51,860 nt of DNA from a bacterium (GTDB lineage: Bacteria; Patescibacteriota; Gracilibacteria; Absconditabacterales; Absconditicoccaceae). The notes below the pieces were generated by a model. That model had not been told where the DNA came from, ran no database searches, and was given only the letters and a program-made list of their open reading frames with translations. The position numbers and the translations under genes are program-made. This document shows positions 3,894 through 13,316 of this stretch, in pieces (positions within the stretch are counted from its first letter, which is position 1; every line of letters starts with the position of its first letter). The stretch lies in assembly GCA_020627925.1 (NCBI GenBank), contig JAHDFY010000007.1:1-51860 (forward strand). Reading direction: 5' to 3'.

Positions 3894-4883
3894 ATGAAAT
3901 CAATTTTGCTCTGAAAATGATCAGTTCTGGATGCTGTAAATCTTACCGATATGTGATGGGAAGAAAGGTTTCATAGGCTTTATGAAGATCAAAAAAAAGC
4001 TGTATGGTTCCCTGAAGAAATTCAAATAGATCAAGATAAAAATGATTACCAATCACTCTCTGATGAAGAAAAAAGAGTTTTCAACACTCTGGTAGCATAT
4101 TTCGTTTGAAGTGAGCTTTTGGTACAAAATGTTTTGGGAGACACATTTTATGCTCATATTACATCTGCTAGAGCAAAAATGGCCCTTTCAGTACAAATGT
4201 TTATGGAGGCTATTCATAACGATTACTTTGAAAAAGTGTTGAACACATTCAGCATGGACAAAGAACAAATGTACAATATAGCAGCTACTAATAGTGTTAT
4301 TGCAAGAAAGAGAAAACTTGTTGCACAGGCAGCTGATCGCATTAATGCAAGAGGGGATGTTGATCCTGATACTCTTGAAGGAAAAAAAGCAATTTTGTAT
4401 GCTATTTTGGTTAATAACATTTTGCAAGAAGGAATTTTTTTCTATAGCGCATTTGCTATCTTCTTTGCAATGAGAGAATCTGGAAAAATGCAACGTGTAT
4501 GTAATGGTATTGATCTTGTCTTAATTGACGAAAGTATGCATCTAAAGATGGGAATGGAAATGATCTTTGCCATTCTTGATGAAGCACCAGAAATTGCTGA
4601 TGATGAAGCATTTATTGCAAATATTCAACAAACATTGATTGATGGAGCATACTTAGAACTAGAATTTTTGAAACAACAATTTGAGTCAGGGATTACTTTT
4701 GGTCTCAACTACAAAGAAATGGAAGAATACCTCAAGTACATTGTTGATAGAAGACTTGAAGAATTAGGATTTGAACCTCATTTTCACGTAACGGATAATC
4801 CACTTAATTTCCTTGAAAAGCAAGATCTTATGACTCTCCAAAACTTCTTTGAAGTAACACCAAATCAATATACTAATTTTTAG
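3894..4883 (+). CDS. nrdB: Ribonucleotide reductase, small (beta) subunit, class Ic-like
   Basis: 329 aa R2 protein that supplies the radical or oxidant to NrdA for making dNDPs. The six metal ligands can be placed as E74 (GSELLVQ), E105 and H108 (EAIHNDYF), E179 (QEGIFFY), E213 and H216 (DESMH). The first ligand is Glu, not the Asp of class Ia, and the position four after H108, where the radical Tyr sits in class Ia, is Phe112. Both features, and the ligand spacing, match the Chlamydia trachomatis Mn/Fe enzyme (E89, E120, H123, E193, E227, H230, F127). Five in-frame TGA codons in the N-terminal part encode Gly. First gene of nrdB-CYTH-nrdA under two NrdR boxes. ATG 3894 gives a complete N-terminus; a downstream ATG at 3951 is possible. 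Confidence 0.95.
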
Positions 4884-4902
4884 TCTCTTTTATATGTTGC
4901 GT

Positions 4903-5421
4903 ATGCAAGAAACAGAATTAACTTTCTTGGCAAAATATATTCCAGAAGACTTCAGTAAAAAAAACTATATTGATTTAATTGATTCATACTTCTTTGAGAC
5001 AGGTGAATCAATATTTAGAACACGCAAGAAGTGAAATAAACTCATGCTTACGAAGAAGGAAGTTGATCCAAGTGGAGATAAATCTATTCATCAGGAATAC
5101 ACGATACCTTTGTCACAAAAAGAATACGATCAATTTACTATCCTCCCAACAAAAAAAACTATTAAAAGAAGATATTTTTATAAAAAAGACGGCTATGTAT
5201 TTGAAATAGATGTTCTTTGATGAAACCTTAAATGATTAGTTCTTATTGATGTTGAATTTACTAATAAAGAAGCAAGAGATTTATTTATCATGCCTGACTT
5301 TTGTTTAGCTGATGTTACTCAAGACGAATGGGTAAGGTGATGAACAATTGCATGACAGACATATGAAAACCTTCAATCAATACTAGATAGCTATTGATAC
5401 CAGAAAATATATTTGGACTAG
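4903..5421 (+). CDS. CYTH-domain (triphosphate tunnel) protein
   Basis: 172 aa. It opens with ETELTFLAKYIPEDF, a variant of the ExExK-type start of CYTH enzymes, followed by alternating charged beta strands (EYTIPLSQKEYDQF, KRRYFYKKDGYVFEIDVL, LVLIDVEFTNKEARD) expected of the eight-stranded tunnel that holds triphosphate and metal. Six or more TGA codons encode glycine. CYTH proteins act on inorganic triphosphate, thiamine triphosphate, or serve as class IV adenylate cyclases; which one applies cannot be told. It sits between nrdB and nrdA with short gaps, so it is probably part of the same transcript and may act on a triphosphate related to nucleotide supply (inference). An in-frame ATG at 4894 is an alternative start. 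Confidence 0.75.
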
Positions 5422-5456: not shown

Positions 5457-7976
5457 ATGCCAAAAACTATTGTTATCCATAGAGATGGAACGAGAGAAGA
5501 ATTTACGTTGGAAAAAATTATTGCTGCAATTAGAGCGGTAGTAAAGCCAGTTGCTCCTGCTGATGAAGTAGAAACTATTGTTGCGACTATTTTGACGAGT
5601 GTGCAACTTAAATTGCCTGAAGAAGTGACTACGTCACAATTTGATGAAGTAGTATTGAAAGCGATTGAACAAAAAATTAGTTCTGATACAATTTTTGATA
5701 CAATTGCAGCGGCACAAATTTTGAAGATGGTAAAGGCAGATGTTGAACAAAGATTTGCTACTTTTGAAGACTATATCAATTATGCTGTTGGTGAAAAACT
5801 TCTTTCAGAAAAACTTCTCAATTTTGATTTTGACCGCCTTCACGCTTCGCTAGATGATTCACGTGATGGATTGTATAATTATTTTGGTGCTGCAACTTTG
5901 GCTGACAGATACTTGTTGAGAGATAGAGAACAAAAAACAATGGAAAAAGCTCAATGGATGTGGATGAGAATTTCTATGGGGTTGTCGTTGAATGAAAAGG
6001 ATCCTACTGATTTTGCAATCCGTGCATATGATCAAATGTCATCGTTGAAATATCTTCACTCTACACCGACACTGTATAATTCAGGAACTCCGTTTTCACA
6101 ATTAAGTAGTTGTTATATTAGTGTTGTTGGTGATGATTTGACACACATTATGAACAAAGCAAATGAAATGGCTCAGTTTGTAAAATATGCAGGTGGAGTA
6201 GGAATGTCTGTAACAAAATTGAGAGCGAGTGGTTCATCAATTAAATCAATTAATTCTATTTCGTCTGGTCCTATTCCGTTTATCAAAATGTATGACGTGA
6301 TCAAGAATGGTGTTTCACAAAATGGTAGAAGAAGAGCAGGTTTGGTAATTTATATTGAACCTTGGCACTATAATATTATGGAATATCTTGATCTAAAAGA
6401 ACAAAATGGATCGCCATATTTGAGAGCTCATTCGATCAACACTGCATTGTGGATTCCTGATTGTTTTATGGAAAGAGTAAAGGCAGGCAAAGATTGGTGG
6501 ATGCTAGATCCACATGAGTGTCCTGAGCTTGCTGAAACATGGGGTGAGGAATTTACCGCTTACTATGATAAATATTGTGAAATGGCGGAAAGAGGTGAAT
6601 TAAAGCTAGCCAAAAAAATGCCAGCAAAACAATTATATGATCATATGCTTTTCCAATTGGCTAAGACAGGAAACAATTGGCTAAACTTTAAAGATACACA
6701 TAATAGAGCTAATCAAGCACCAAGTTATGGAAATATTCACAGTTCGAATCTTTGTACAGAAATATCTATTCCCAACAATGAAAATAGCACGGCCGTATGT
6801 ACACTGGCGTCTCTTGTTCTTCCTAGATTTTTGAAACAAGATGAAAGGTTGGGAACCGAAAAAGTGATTGGGTTGTCGACAGAAGAAAAAATGCAATTGA
6901 TTGACTGGGATACCATGAGAGAAACAATTCGTGTTGCGATCCGTGCATTGGATAATGTTATTGATCTTAACTTTTTTCCATCAGAAGATGCAAAAAGAAA
7001 TTCATTTGATCTAAGGCCAATTGGTTTAGGATTCATGGGATTGGCAGAGTTGTATATTGATTTGGGTATCGCTTTTGATAGTCCTGAAGCAGTAGAACTT
7101 GCTGACAAAATTGGTGCGTTTATTCAACAATTGACATTGAATGCATCAAAAGAGCTTGCAGAGGAAAGAGGGGCATTTAGAGATTATAATGCTGAAATAT
7201 ATGACTATGAGCCAAGAAGAAATGCCTTGCTCATGGCTATCGCTCCTACTGCATCGATCTCGTTGATTGCTGGTACGTCAAGTACGGTTGATCCATATTT
7301 TGCGAATGTATATTCTCGTGAAGTAATTAGAGGTAAGTTTACGATTATTATTCATCAGCTGGTGAATCAATTAAAAGCAAAAGGTGTATGGACAGAAGAA
7401 TTGAAAAATAAAATTATTGCCAATCAAGGTTCTATCCAAAACATCGAAGAGCTTGATGGAGTGATTGATAAGAATCTGTTCAAGACCTCGTATGAGACTG
7501 GTTGGAAGGCACAAATTGATGTGGTTTCTGCATTGCAAAAACATTTGGATCAATCGATTACAAGAAATATGTACATCCAAGAAGAATCAAGATCTGAAAT
7601 GGATGACGTCTATATGTATGCTTGGGAGAAAGGATTGAAATGAACGTACTATTGCTTCATTGAGAAAAAGATTCAAGGAGAAAAATACACACAAACAGTA
7701 AACAAGAGAGGAGCGAGAAAATGATTCGGAGCAAGAAAAGGTTTTGCTACAAGAAGAATGGGTGCGCTGCAAGCAGGAACAGAAGCGACATCTGATGATT
7801 TGAAAGACATCGATTTTGCTAACATTACTGCTGAACAAAAAATTGCTATTAGACAAAAACTTATCAAAGATAAAGGAGCTGATTACGTAAAGAAACTTGA
7901 AAGTGGAGAACTGTACCAAAATGGTGCATGTCCAGTTGATCCATTTGAAAAAGTAATGTGTGAAGCTTGTCAGTAA
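5457..7976 (+). CDS. nrdA: Ribonucleotide reductase, large (alpha) subunit, class I
   Basis: 839 aa catalytic subunit. An N-terminal ATP-cone (residues 1-95, PKTIVIHRDGTREEF) suggests dATP feedback control. Active-site residues are visible: C219 (SSCYIS), C433 and E435 with the preceding Asn (NLCTEIS), C448 (CTLASLV), and the tail cysteines CEAC at 835-838 that accept electrons from thioredoxin or glutaredoxin. Two TGA codons (7641 and 7722) lie near the C-terminus; read as stops they would remove the tail. The start at 5457 gives MPKTIVIHRDG; the longer frame from 5394 overlaps the CYTH gene and has no family support. Followed by a terminator, so the nrdB-CYTH-nrdA unit ends here. Confidence 0.97.
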
Positions 7977-8552: not shown

Positions 8553-9158
8553 ATGATCTTATCTGATGCACAAATTAGAGAGAATATAGAAAATGGTAGA
8601 ATTGGTTTTACTCCTGTTGATCAGAAACATTATGGCCATGATGTGATGAATCAAATTGGCCCAGCAAGTTTGGATTTTCGTTTGGGTAATACATTTAAAA
8701 TTTATAGAAAAAGTAAAATTGCGATGATCGATCCACGTGATCCTTCAACAGTTGATGGTATGGTAGAGACAGTGACCATCAATGACGGAGAGTTTTTTAT
8801 GTTGCACCCACGTCAATTTGTACTTGGAGTAACAGCAGAAGTGCTTCGTATTCCTGATGACCTTGTAGCTAGATGTGAAGGTAGAAGTAGTCTTGGAAGA
8901 CTAGGTCTTATCATTCATTCAACCGCATGATTTATTGATCCAGGTTTTACATGAACAATTACTCTGGAAATTACAAATATCAATGAAGTTCCTATTAAAT
9001 TATACCCAGGTATGAGAATCGGACAATATGCTTTTGAGACAGTTGCCGGTGAAGTAGAAACTCACTATGGTGTCAGAAAATGAAGCAAATATATGCATCA
9101 AGTATTACCAGAAGAGAGTAGAGTATTTCACGACCATGAGCATAAGGATGAAAATTAG
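8553..9158 (+). CDS. dcd: dCTP deaminase
   Basis: 201 aa. Converts dCTP to dUTP (or to dUMP in bifunctional forms) for thymidylate synthesis. The signature [23 protein letters not shown] spans about residues 110-132, with the substrate-binding Arg/Ser/Ser, and LEITN carries the catalytic glutamate. N-terminal ILSDAQIRENIENGRIGF and C-terminal RIGQYAFE fit the family. Three TGA codons encode Gly, one directly after HSTA. Lies with YecM between the nrdA terminator and a bidirectional terminator shared with atpA. Confidence 0.95.
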
Positions 9159-9215: not shown

Positions 9216-10724
9216 CTATGATTCTTTTACTTCATCTACAGCATCACGAATTACTTTCTTTATTCCTTCCTCTATTTCATCAGTAAGTTTTTTGATATCA
9301 ATAATCATATCACGTACTTCAACAAATGAGCTGTCTAGTTTTTCGTATAATGTTTGCTCGAATTTTTTTACTTGTTCTACTTCTAATTCATCCAAGTAAC
9401 CGTTAATTCCTGCATAAGTAAGAACTACTTGTTTGTCGAATGTAATCGGACTATTCACATCTTGTTTGAGTGCTTCTACCAATCTTTTTCCTCTATCCAA
9501 TACTTTTTTGGTAGCAGGGTCTAGATCAGAACCAAATTGTGAAAATGCTTCTAGTTCTCTATATTGAGCAAGTCCAAGTTTTAGTTTTCCTGCAACTTTT
9601 TTCATGATCTTTGTTTGAGCAGAACCACCTACACGTGATACAGAAGTACCAACATTAATCGCTGGTCTCACTCCAGCATTGAATAGGTCTGCTTCTAGGA
9701 AAATTTGACCATCAGTAATAGAAATTACATTAGTTGGAACGTATGCAGATACGTCTCCACCTTTTGTTTCGATGATTGGGAGTGCCGTAAGACTTCCACC
9801 TCCATTCTCTGGATTTACTCTTGCAGCTCTTTCTAGCAATCTTGAGTGTAGGTAGAATACGTCTCCTGGGTATGCTTCTCTACCTGGAGGTCTTCTCAAA
9901 AGAAGAGACATTTCTCTATACGCGTCAGCGTGTTTTGATAGATCATCATAAATGATAAGTGCATCTTTACCATTTTGCATGAAGTATTCTCCAATAGTAC
10001 ATCCGATATATGGAGCGAAGTATTGCATTACAGAAGGGGCGTTAGCTGGAGCATTTACTACAACAGTATAGTCCATTGCTCCTTTTTCTTTTAATGTTTG
10101 TACAATTCTTGCTACTTTTGATTCTTTTTGACCGATAGCAACATAGATACACACCATGTTTTCATTTTTTTGGTTCAAAATAGTATCAATAGCTACGGTT
10201 GTTTTTCCTGTTTGTCTATCTCCGATAATCAATTCTCTTTGACCTCTACCAATAGGGATCATGTTGTCAATTGATTTGATTCCAGTTTGAAGCGGTTGGT
10301 TTACTTCTTTTCTTGCCATAACTCCAGGAGCAACTCTTTCAACAGGATATCTTTCTGATCCTTTGATTTCTCCTTTGGCATCAATAGCTTCACCAAGTCC
10401 ATTTACTACTCTTCCTATGTAATCTTCTCCTACAGGAATTGAAAGTACTGTTCCTGATCATTGAACTATTTGACCAGTTGCTAGACCTTTTGCTTCACCA
10501 AGAATAAGAACTCCTATTTGATCCTTGAGTAGATCAAGAATAAGACCTTTGGTTCCGTTTTCGAATAATACAATTTCTGAGTACATTGCATTTTGCAATC
10601 CACTCACAATAGCAACTCCATCTTTGATCTCTAGGATTTCACCCTTGTTGCTGAGTGAATCACCAAGATCACTTTTGTGGATTTGCTCTTCGATTTTAGC
10701 TACGATATCATTTATGTGTGACAT
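9216..10724 (-). CDS. atpA: F-type ATP synthase subunit alpha
   Basis: 502 aa, normal length. N-terminal beta-barrel with [16 protein letters not shown], nucleotide-binding domain with Walker A GDRQTGKT around residue 170, and the catalytic arginine region [12 protein letters not shown]. One TGA codon at 10458-10460 lies between IVQ and SGTVLSIP and encodes Gly. Last gene of the atpB-E-F-H-A run. The gamma and epsilon genes that often follow are absent here: transcription meets a terminator six bases beyond the stop. Confidence 0.97.
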
Positions 10725-10760
10725 GATGTTGTTCTATTACTAACAAAATTAAAGATGTTG

Positions 10761-11198
10761 TTATCAGAGTAGTTTATTTAAATCTTGATCGAGAGATCTC
10801 GAATAGTATGTACCTTCTCCTTTGATTAACACACGAGGCTTGTCTATGTTGACCGGATGAGTCTCTGCATTATAGGTTGTTTTTATATGATCCGCAATGT
10901 CTTTATCTGATGGACTATATATGGTAAAGACAGGAGTGTGTTCAAAGTTTTCTTTTATCAAACGAATAATGTCTTGGACAGCATCTTTATTCATTTTTGA
11001 AAGAGAATGTAATAGACGAATAATACGCACAAGATCAGGATTATTTTTTTCAATAATAGATAGTATGCTATCTTTTTTTAAGTTTTTACCTTGTCTCAGC
11101 AGCAGTAATTTTATAGTTTCAAGATGTTGGATCACAAGATCGGTATCTTTTTTTCCTAGCTGTTCTGCTAACTGTTTGTTGGTCATATACATATGCAT
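10761..11198 (-). CDS. atpH: F-type ATP synthase subunit delta
   Basis: 145 aa, shorter and more divergent than typical delta (about 175-180). Identified by position between atpF and atpA and by a C-terminal segment PRVLIKGEGTYYSRSLDQDL that matches the end of delta subunits, which link F1 to the peripheral stalk. The codons after NKLL are TGA then TAA; under the glycine code the protein ends ...NKLLG at TAA, three bases later than a standard reading. Three in-frame ATGs near the start (11198, 11192, 11186) leave the N-terminus uncertain by four residues. Confidence 0.8.
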
Positions 11199-11216
11199 AA
11201 ACGGACTAGAATAAAA

Positions 11217-11714
11217 TTATGACTTTTTTGCTTCTTTTACAATAACATCAATGTATTCATTTTGTAATTCTTTTTTTCCATTGAATAATTTATTGATTGC
11301 TGAAGCAGAAACTGTTTTTACTGCATTTTCAAATTCTTTTTCCATTTCTTTTTCCATTTGAGCTGCTTTTGTTTCAGCTCCTTCTATAATGGTTTGCGCT
11401 TTTGTATGTCATTCGCTAATAATTTCTTCTTTTCTCTTTTCAGCGATACTACCAGCTTCTGCTATAAGAGAATCTTTTTTGTCTTTACCTTCTTTTATAA
11501 TTGTATCAGCTTTTTTATTTGCTTCGTCGATGATTTCTTCATATGCAGTGTCTGCGTTTTCAAGTTTTTTGATAAGATTTCTCTTTTCTTGCACCTCTTT
11601 GATTATTTTGTCTCCAAGAAAATATTTGAAAGCAAAAATAAGAAGAAGTACATTAACCGCTTGTGCAATAAGAACTCATCAATTCAAATCCAATGATGCT
11701 AGTAGTTCGTTCAT
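11217..11714 (-). CDS. atpF: F-type ATP synthase subunit b
   Basis: 165 aa. One N-terminal membrane helix (about residues 13-32, VLIAQAVNVLLLIFAFKYFL) followed by a long charged amphipathic helix rich in Lys, Glu and Ala (EVQEKRNLIKKLENADTAY and onward), the peripheral-stalk coiled coil. TGA codons encode glycine, including a pair in LNGGVL before the membrane helix. Placed between atpE and atpH as expected. Confidence 0.9.
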
Positions 11715-11776
11715 TAAAAAGATTAAGTAGTATAAAATTAGTTGTTAGTGTGTGTTATTGTTCTTTATGGAAAAAA

Positions 11777-12217
11777 TTATCCTAGGATTTGGAATGCTAG
11801 TACCAATCCGTAGATAGCTGCAGATTCAACAAGAGCAATAAATAGTACCATATATGTCAAAATTGATCCTTTGATTTCTGGATTTCTGTGTACTGCTGCA
11901 AGAGCTTCTTTTGCAACAAAACCTTCACCAAGACCAGCTCCAAGACCAGCAAGACCGATAGCAAGACCAGCTCCAACTGCTTGCATTACTTCAATAGACT
12001 CAGCAGAAACAATATTGAATCCGATAACAAGAGCGTAGATAGCTGCAGATTCAACAAGAGCGATACCTAGAATTGTGTATACAAGAATAGTTCCACTAAG
12101 TTCTGGGTTTTTCCCCATAATTTCTAATGCTTTTTTTGCAGTAATTCCTTGTCAAATAGTTACTCCGATAGCTGCTAGACCAATAGCTAAACCAGCTCCA
12201 ATAAGATGTGTAGTCAT
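11777..12217 (-). CDS. atpE: F-type ATP synthase subunit c, duplicated hairpin
   Basis: 146 aa, about twice a normal c subunit, with two tandem helical hairpins (residues 1-70 and 80-146). Each repeat has an ion-site glutamate in helix 2: E56 and E131, both in VESAAIY. The Na+-site residues of the Ilyobacter ring (Q32, E65, S66, Y70) map to Q23, E56, S57, Y61 in the first hairpin, and to E98, E131, S132, Y136 in the second; the 33-residue spacing is exact in both. Thr67 of Ilyobacter is Ala in both. A TGA codon encodes the Gly before Q23. Both hairpins keep the carboxylate, unlike eukaryotic-type V ring duplications where one is lost. Confidence 0.93.
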
Positions 12218-12306
12218 TTTTATATATAGATAGAATAGATAAATAAGTTATATGTAGTGTGTTTGTAAGCCACAATTTGCTAACCCGAATGGGTTATAAG
12301 TATTTA

Positions 12307-13161
12307 TTATGCTTTTGCAACTTTAATAAATATTGCTCCTAATAATGTCACAACAAAAGCTTGCACAAGAGCAACAAGTAATGATTGAATCCAAAGAATA
12401 ATAGGAAACAAAAATGGGAAATCCAATCCACCGATACTTTGTGATAGTCAGATAGTTGCTGTAGTCAAAATTCCTAGGAGAATTGTTCCTGAGAACATGT
12501 TTCCAAATAATCTGAAAGAAACTGATATGATTTTTGCAAATATCCCAATAATATCTAAGACACCAATGAAGAGCGATATAATAATATCAAACAATTTTAC
12601 TACCACGAGCATTGGATAATAAACTATTGCTGATTTTTGTCCTCTGTCTACTGATAAGTATCATTTACCCATGATTGGAAAGTATTCAGAGAAAAATTTA
12701 ATTGGCCCTATATGAAACAATTGAATCACTAACGAGAGCAATACAATGATAAGTGAGAGAGCAGTCGTTGCATTTTTGTCTCATGAGAAAGCTCCAAACA
12801 TGTTTTCTCCTTGTGCAAGACCAATTGATTGAGCATAGCTATCACTTATTGATACAAATGATCAAACAATGTCTCCTACCAAACCAAGAAGGTTTGCTAT
12901 GAGAACAACAAAAAATATTGAAGTGAGAAATGAAAGTATCCATTTTTTTTCATGAGTTCCAAGGATTTCTTGAAGAAAGTCATGGATTTTTTCAACTGCT
13001 CACTTGAAAAGTAAAGTGAAACTTCATTGCGGCATTGTTCTAAAAGACAATGCGATAAGTACGATAAGTAGTAATTGAACAAGTCAACCAAGAATAGCTG
13101 GTTGATATCACAAACTCATAGTTGTGTTGATTGCTTCTGGCATAACGCTTATTGTGTCCAT
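12307..13161 (-). CDS. atpB: F-type ATP synthase subunit a
   Basis: 284 aa membrane protein forming the ion half-channels. About five to six membrane helices; the essential arginine lies in SVSFRLFGNMFSG (around residue 218), and the last helices read LVALVQAFVVTLLGAIFI. About nine TGA codons encode Gly. ATG 13159-13161 gives MDTISVMPEA; a second ATG seven codons on is possible. First gene of the minus-strand ATP synthase run; a TATACT box lies about 45 bp upstream. Confidence 0.95.
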
Positions 13162-13206
13162 CGTTTTCTTGCTTCGTCTCAATAAACATAAAAAAAGACA
13201 AAACCA

Positions 13207-13212
13207 AGTATA
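13207..13212 (-). promoter_or_regulatory. Possible -10 element for the atpB-E-F-H-A run
   Basis: TATACT on the minus strand, 45 bp before the atpB ATG. The same hexamer precedes several other genes in this window. No convincing -35 was seen. A TATAAG on the plus strand overlaps it (13209-13214) and could drive transcription the other way. Confidence 0.4.
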
Positions 13213-13226
13213 AGTGGCTATTAACG

Positions 13227-13316
13227 TTTGTTTCTCTCCATTGCAAAGTGGTAAGCTCAGTCCCGCTGCGCGGCACATATCGGCTCCCAGATGGAAAGTG
13301 TAAGAAAGACAAACAG
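13227..13316 (+). ncRNA. Candidate structured RNA in the atpB upstream region
   Basis: This stretch is richer in G+C than its surroundings and folds on paper: an outer stem GTTTG...CAAAC extended by TTTCT/AGAAA, a 5-bp hairpin CCATT-GCAA-AGTGG with a GNRA tetraloop, and CCGC-TGC-GCGG. The GNRA loop favours the plus strand, and TATAAG lies 13 bp upstream. No known RNA family was recognised. The rest of 13162-13545 holds no gene I can support. Confidence 0.3.

Follow-up and report, generated by a model that had tools for sequence, protein, structure and literature searches.

A putative divergent class Ic-like R2 subunit of ribonucleotide reductase in a Gracilibacterium and its relatives from several phyla

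What is known of class Ic chemistry in ribonucleotide reductase (RNR) comes mainly from the Chlamydia enzyme, its one biochemical model. Class I R2 subunits can be told apart by the residue at the radical position and by the first metal ligand: Phe with Glu is the class Ic pairing, Tyr with Glu that of class Id, and Tyr with Asp that of classes Ia and Ib (PMC8463856). In Chlamydia R2c, Tyr222 mediates cofactor activation together with Trp51 and is described as conserved among R2c proteins (PMC4118035). According to the same paper, metal specificity is not set by the N-terminal (first) ligand. Tyr-less R2 proteins and their possible polyphyly have been noted before (PMC3019208, PMC3824934, PMC4390871): Tyr-less NrdBs have been stated to form one tight cluster (Lundin 2015, PMC4390871), and a polyphyletic R2c has been attributed to Lundin 2010 (as reported in PMC3824934).

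Here we analyze an R2 gene, nrdB, from a bacterium of the Absconditicoccaceae (Gracilibacteria, Patescibacteriota), located in what we call the window, that is, the whole stretch of DNA analyzed, 51,860 nucleotides of contig JAHDFY010000007.1. Its product is probably the radical-generating subunit of the only RNR detected in the genome, with a metal-centred oxidant, most likely Mn(IV)/Fe(III), in place of the tyrosyl radical. Judging from alignments and trees, NrdB belongs to a cross-phylum clade comprising Gracilibacteria, Hydrogenothermaceae, Balneolaceae and KSB1, of which we found no prior description in the open-licence literature.

The nrdB locus and the RNR complement of the genome

The gene occupies positions 3894-4883 of the forward strand, from an ATG at 3894 to a TAG at 4881-4883, exactly where the original prediction had placed it. 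Read with translation table 11, the frame is interrupted by four TGA stops (3912, 3918, 3954 and 4107), whereas table 25, in which TGA encodes Gly, gives one complete protein of 329 aa. We adopted TGA=Gly because TGA hits a conserved Gly both in the AtpD P-loop, which then reads GGAGVGKT, and in NrdA; the standard code, with its stops, and TGA=Trp were both rejected. In-frame TGA recurs in the genes neighbouring nrdB. The protein scores 198.9 bits against the class I RNR R2 family (PF00268, cut-off 33.6 bits) which, with nrdA adjacent, identifies it as a member of this family.

The R1 gene, nrdA, is found at 5457-7976 (+) and encodes, from the ATG at 5457, 839 aa with one ATP cone, class I domains, and intact catalytic and radical-transfer residues: the equivalents of E. 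coli C225, N437, C439, E441, C462, Y730 and Y731, as well as a C-terminal CxxC, are present in NrdA and in 9/9 relatives examined. Between nrdB and nrdA lies an ORF of 175 aa (4894-5421, +) that contains eight TGA=Gly codons and matches no Pfam or NCBIfam family significantly; it may encode a CYTH-type protein. A further nucleotide-metabolism gene, dcd, encoding dCTP deaminase, stands nearby at 8553-9158 (+). The nrd genes and dcd are lodged between atpD (110-1606, +) and a group on the opposite strand, about 7.6 kb off, that holds atpA and delta/b/c/a-like ORFs (9216-13278, -): the ATP synthase cluster is split. AtpE, the c subunit encoded in this group (11777-12217, -; 146 aa), contains two ATP-synt_C stretches and reads as two fused c-subunit hairpins with a carboxylate in each, so that the c subunit of this F-type cluster seems duplicated.

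The genome assembly (1.27 Mb in 10 contigs, 96% complete) holds one R2 and one R1 barrel, and searches of it returned neither an NrdD nor any match to NrdI (PF07972). On this gene content, NrdB/NrdA appears to be the sole route to deoxynucleotides in the 96%-complete assembly.

Metal site and predicted fold of NrdB

NrdB was originally predicted to carry class Ic residues, with Glu74 as first ligand, Phe112 at the radical-Tyr position, and a ligand spacing nearly identical to that of the Chlamydia enzyme. Glu74 (4113-4115; all features of nrdB given here are on the forward strand) indeed stands where classes Ia and Ib have Asp, and the ligand set of four Glu and two His is completed by the motifs E105-x-x-H108 (4206-4217) and E213-x-x-H216 (4530-4541) and by Glu179 (4428-4430). 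Phe112 (4227-4229), at EXXH+4, falls on the radical-Tyr position of classes Ia and Ib and corresponds to Phe127 of Chlamydia R2c. The C. trachomatis set, checked on the PDB sequence, is E89, E120, H123, F127, E193, E227 and H230, which gives spacings, Phe included, of 31/3/4/66/34/3 against 31/3/4/67/34/3 in NrdB; with one residue of difference overall, 'nearly identical' was correct. The Chlamydia structures (PDB 1syy, 4d8f, 4m1h and 4m1i) share with NrdB the six ligands with Glu first and the Phe at the radical position, and NrdB keeps equivalents of Trp51, Asp226, His123 and Tyr338 (W51, D226 and Y338, as well as Y222, were also checked on the PDB sequence).

Conservation was counted over 40 sequences, namely the window and 39 loci that were retrieved from named genomes with two scan patterns. 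F112 formed part of one pattern, so that its conservation is partly ascertained, while E74 was in neither; L029, cut by a contig end, was left out of the residue counts. E74, E105, H108 and F112 are each invariant (40/40), and among the clade sequences reaching the sites so are E179 (38/38), E213 and H216 (both 37/37). This conservation throughout the clade excludes a chance origin of the E74/F112 pair. The C-terminal Tyr is kept in 36/36 sequences and Trp38, the radical-transfer Trp, in 39/40. The remaining sequence, from a Gracilibacteria-type relative (L006/L072), has Arg at position 38, either a real variant or a sequence error.

A Tyr one residue before Phe112 had been flagged at the outset as a possible complication. 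The alignment, together with conservation, rules out Tyr111 (4224-4226) as the radical site: it lies at EXXH+3, and this position is Phe in 39 of the 40 sequences, Tyr being unique to the window genome. That a tyrosyl radical still forms, on Tyr111 or on another tyrosine, is thus very improbable, even though Tyr111 adjoins Phe112 in the chain; on geometric grounds, EXXH+3 would moreover face away from the metal side of the helix (92-118 in the model).

NrdB departs from Chlamydia R2c in two further features. The alignment places Leu208 (4515-4517) at the position of the activation-relay Tyr222 (PMC4118035), and Leu is found there in 38/38 clade sequences. This position gives Tyr in 13 and Phe in 7 of the 20 Chlamydia-type rows, so that the published Tyr222 rule for R2c is a loose one; NrdB, with its Leu, does not follow it. 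In addition, NrdB ends in Tyr326-Thr-Asn-Phe (4869-4880), only three residues beyond the radical-transfer Tyr, as do all 36 complete clade sequences, compared with eight residues in Chlamydia R2c and at least six in all 63 rows counted from other R2 groups.

The AlphaFold2 model of NrdB has a pLDDT of 90.1, with the tail (residues 310-329) undefined. Among solved folds, those of Chlamydia NrdB come closest, Mn/Fe forms included, with Foldseek TM values (by query length) of 0.83-0.87, a Z of 40.4 and an rmsd of 1.8-1.9 over 310-311 residues, at about 27% identity over the structural match. Lower matches are obtained for E. coli R2 (Z 36.5), A. aeolicus (34.9), L. blandensis (32.8) and NrdF (32.1); as all of these share the R2 fold, the match to Chlamydia is supportive and not diagnostic. 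C. trachomatis R2c is also the best PDB sequence match, at 118 bits with NrdB and 157 bits with a profile, while class Ib and Id entries of the PDB reach at most 66.4 bits with the profile.

Four other assignments were considered and rejected. Classes Ib and Ie were ruled out, the NrdF model scoring 79.7 bits against a cut-off of 355 and NrdI not being found. For class Id, the profile gives 60-63 bits with chains 8dq5, 8dq4 and 6cwo, which we take to be F. johnsoniae NrdB, and 39 bits with 6sf4, compared with 157 for Chlamydia. Class Id R2 proteins (Flavobacterium johnsoniae, Leeuwenhoekiella blandensis) have Glu as first ligand, like NrdB, and a metal-based oxidant, but they retain the Tyr at the radical position (PMC8463856); Phe112 stands where this class needs Tyr, which rules it out. 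Class O (zero) ferritin-like subunits resemble NrdB in that their radical site holds Phe or Leu and their chain stops just past the C-terminal Tyr, but in this class the alpha and the ferritin-like subunit average 412 and 240 aa, and the alpha has no ATP cone (Burnim 2022, PMC9531940); an NrdA of 839 aa with an ATP cone and an NrdB of 329 aa do not fit this class.

The last of these assignments, an R2lox-type oxidase instead of a reductase subunit, scarcely deserves credence. The Tyr of the Tyr-Val cross-link of R2lox, which we take to lie five residues before the third Glu ligand, is replaced by Asn in NrdB and by Asn or Ser in 38/38 clade sequences, and with the R2lox models of NCBIfam NrdB reaches 26-68 bits, far below their cut-offs (194-346). 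The R2lox proteins also combine a Glu as first ligand with Mn/Fe (PMC4118035); against this stand the C-terminal radical-transfer Tyr (Tyr326 in NrdB), which R2lox lacks and which is kept throughout the clade, the nrdA gene downstream in most loci, and the position of NrdB as sole R2 of its genome.

Distribution and phylogeny of the clade

Five genomes of the window's family have the same R2 type, at 58-64% identity. The 39 scan loci comprise 24 Aquificota (Persephonella, Hydrogenothermus, Sulfurihydrogenibium and other MAGs), 9 Balneolaceae (Fodinibius, Aliifodinibius, Gracilimonas and MAGs), 5 Gracilibacteria, Patescibacteria or MAG entries that match the same-family genomes, and 1 KSB1. The Aquificota also include a described class Ia R2, that of Aquifex aeolicus (NrdBh, PDB 7aik/7ail), which shows a tyrosyl radical (PMC8772380), unlike the Glu/Phe sequences of Hydrogenothermaceae found here. 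Within the window's family, some genomes bear the window-type Glu/Phe R2 and others a distant one, which is Asp/Tyr in both of those read (L024 and L031); such patchiness suggests that the gene has been replaced by transfer.

In the window and in 28/39 clade loci, nrdB precedes nrdA; the other 11/39, which end inside nrdB or within about 2 kb beyond it, have no nrdA match. This order differs from that of the other groups: among loci having both genes, nrdA comes first in 10 Chlamydia-type, 8 second-clade and 5 related class Ia loci. The second clade mentioned here is a Patescibacteria clade ('f40' type, L074-L091), another unstudied Ic-like group, with Glu/Phe in 18/18 sequences as in the window clade. 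The two clades share about 32-37% identity, and the second differs by a Trp at the Tyr222 position (18/18), a tail of at least six residues, and the nrdA-nrdB order.

R2 trees were computed from 62 rows that lacked columns 74 and 112, the window clade being reduced to 18 representatives, and again after removal of eight long-branch rows. The pooled alignment was made without L066, L069, L070 and L071 (incomplete) and without L034-L037 and L072 (same genomes as L003-L007); the NrdA trees were made without L124 and L130 (no NrdA match), the second of them also without E. coli and with a mixture model. Most references came from Patescibacteria, supplemented by a small number from plasmids, phages, E. 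coli and the PDB; the set had no A. aeolicus, class Id or class Ie sequences.

The 62-row R2 tree recovers the window clade at 100/100 and joins it to the second Patescibacteria Glu/Phe clade at 91/90, with Chlamydia-type R2c placed elsewhere, among class Ia rows. Without the long-branch rows, the join of the two clades rises to 100/99, and Chlamydia-type plus Ia is found at 88/71. Both NrdA trees unite the window and second Patescibacteria clades at 100/100; Chlamydia-type and Ia group at 99/100 in the first tree and form no resolved group under the mixture model. The R1 of the window is in another clade than the R1s of Chlamydia-type R2c.

A single clade of all Glu/Phe R2 rows is rejected (p 6e-7 in the full set, 0.0007 in the reduced set), in part because two Glu/Phe proteins, PDB 6y2n and the R2 of an Aureimonas plasmid, fall among Asp/Tyr enzymes. 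With these two set aside, one clade obtains p 0.0138 in the full R2 set and p-AU 0.336, not rejected, in the reduced set; with an outcome that varies with sampling, and a long window-clade branch, the R2 trees alone cannot decide on a single origin. In NrdA, one Glu/Phe clade is rejected in the first tree (p 0.000245) and in the second (p 0.000308). A group supported at 100/99 brings together L106 and PDB 6y2n, both Glu/Phe, with L108 and L113, both Asp/Tyr: the site has therefore switched type within the Chlamydia-type neighbourhood.

As far as these alignments go, the rejection shows that the Glu/Phe trait and lineage do not coincide. It is compatible with independent gains or with reversals to Asp/Tyr and does not decide between them. 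Descent of all Glu/Phe R2s from one Glu/Phe ancestor, with the interleaved Asp/Tyr enzymes as reversals, is a question of history and not of mechanism, and we hold it to be a serious possibility, a little short of even. The trees call for few type changes (at least 3 on the R2 tree and 4 on the NrdA tree, in one direction or the other), and the grouping that the reduced R2 set does not reject unites the window and second Patescibacteria clades with the 13 main Chlamydia-type rows. The full set rejects this grouping, and all R2 and NrdA tests reject the all-Glu/Phe clade, but such rejections do not by themselves separate convergence from reversal.

The label 'class Ic' of the original prediction is thus sustained in part. 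It agrees with the residues, Glu74 and Phe112, and with the best sequence and fold match; it does not extend to lineage, since NrdB falls outside the Chlamydia-type R2c clade in the R2 and NrdA trees (one reduced R2 test giving p 0.336) and its clade has Leu at the Tyr222 position. NrdB is best described, on its sequence, as a divergent Ic-like lineage outside the Chlamydia-type R2c branch.

Putative cofactor and significance

We infer the identity of the metals, the absence of a tyrosyl radical and the electron path from the described families. The six-ligand carboxylate/histidine site would bind two metals. With Phe112 at the radical position, a stable tyrosyl radical could not form there, and the oxidant would therefore be stored by the oxidised metal pair itself, most probably the Mn(IV)/Fe(III) pair known from Chlamydia R2c. 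This oxidant would then draw an electron along a path that runs by way of His108, Asp212, Trp38 and Tyr326 into NrdA, with its tyrosine dyad and its active-site Cys.

Several points weaken this case: Leu208, and with it the absence of the Tyr222 relay; manganese uptake genes that were not found; and the diversity of the R2 family, to which cofactor types (Id, Ie) keep being added. The search for manganese uptake gave no support, as Nramp has no match in the genome and its one ZnuA-family binding protein is zinc-like. The Fe/Mn superoxide dismutase reaches 243 bits with one Mn model and 173 bits with the Fe model, each below the cut-off; this proximity to the Mn model lends slight support to manganese use.

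A Tyr-free R2 with some other metal oxidant, such as Mn/Mn as in class Id or Fe/Fe, would amount to an uncharacterised class I cofactor type. The placement of the clade apart from Chlamydia R2c in the R2 and NrdA trees, its Leu at the Tyr222 position and its three-residue tail point in this direction, and the first ligand is not diagnostic of the metal (PMC4118035); we nevertheless judge it unlikely, as the ligand set, spacing and fold are nearest to the Mn/Fe enzyme and class Id is far by sequence, with Tyr where NrdB has Phe. A bolder account, tentative and rather doubtful in our eyes, is that a separate class I lineage, transferred among Gracilibacteria, Hydrogenothermaceae, Balneolaceae and KSB1, reached a Tyr-free metal-oxidant R2 independently of Chlamydia. 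This lineage would activate its cofactor without the Tyr222 relay and dock on NrdA with a three-residue tail, and would in effect constitute a subclass of its own, perhaps with a distinct metal pairing.

Under the Mn(IV)/Fe(III) reading that we favour, NrdB would need manganese and might resist nitric oxide and superoxide, both of which the original prediction had put forward. We treat the two as hypotheses because the first ligand does not fix the metal. A link with NO has been suggested for subclass Ic in general (PMC4390871).

The clade constitutes a little-noticed branch common to a Gracilibacterium and to hot-spring and salt-loving bacteria, and it is relevant to the published claim of a single cluster of Tyr-less NrdBs. 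By keeping the same first-sphere residues without Tyr222, and with almost no R2 tail, it offers a natural experiment on what a metal-oxidant and R1-R2 docking need. Its members in named strains of Fodinibius and Gracilimonas make the enzyme testable without recourse to uncultured Gracilibacteria. For the host itself, DNA synthesis in a reduced genome would rest on one oxygen-dependent, possibly manganese-dependent enzyme.
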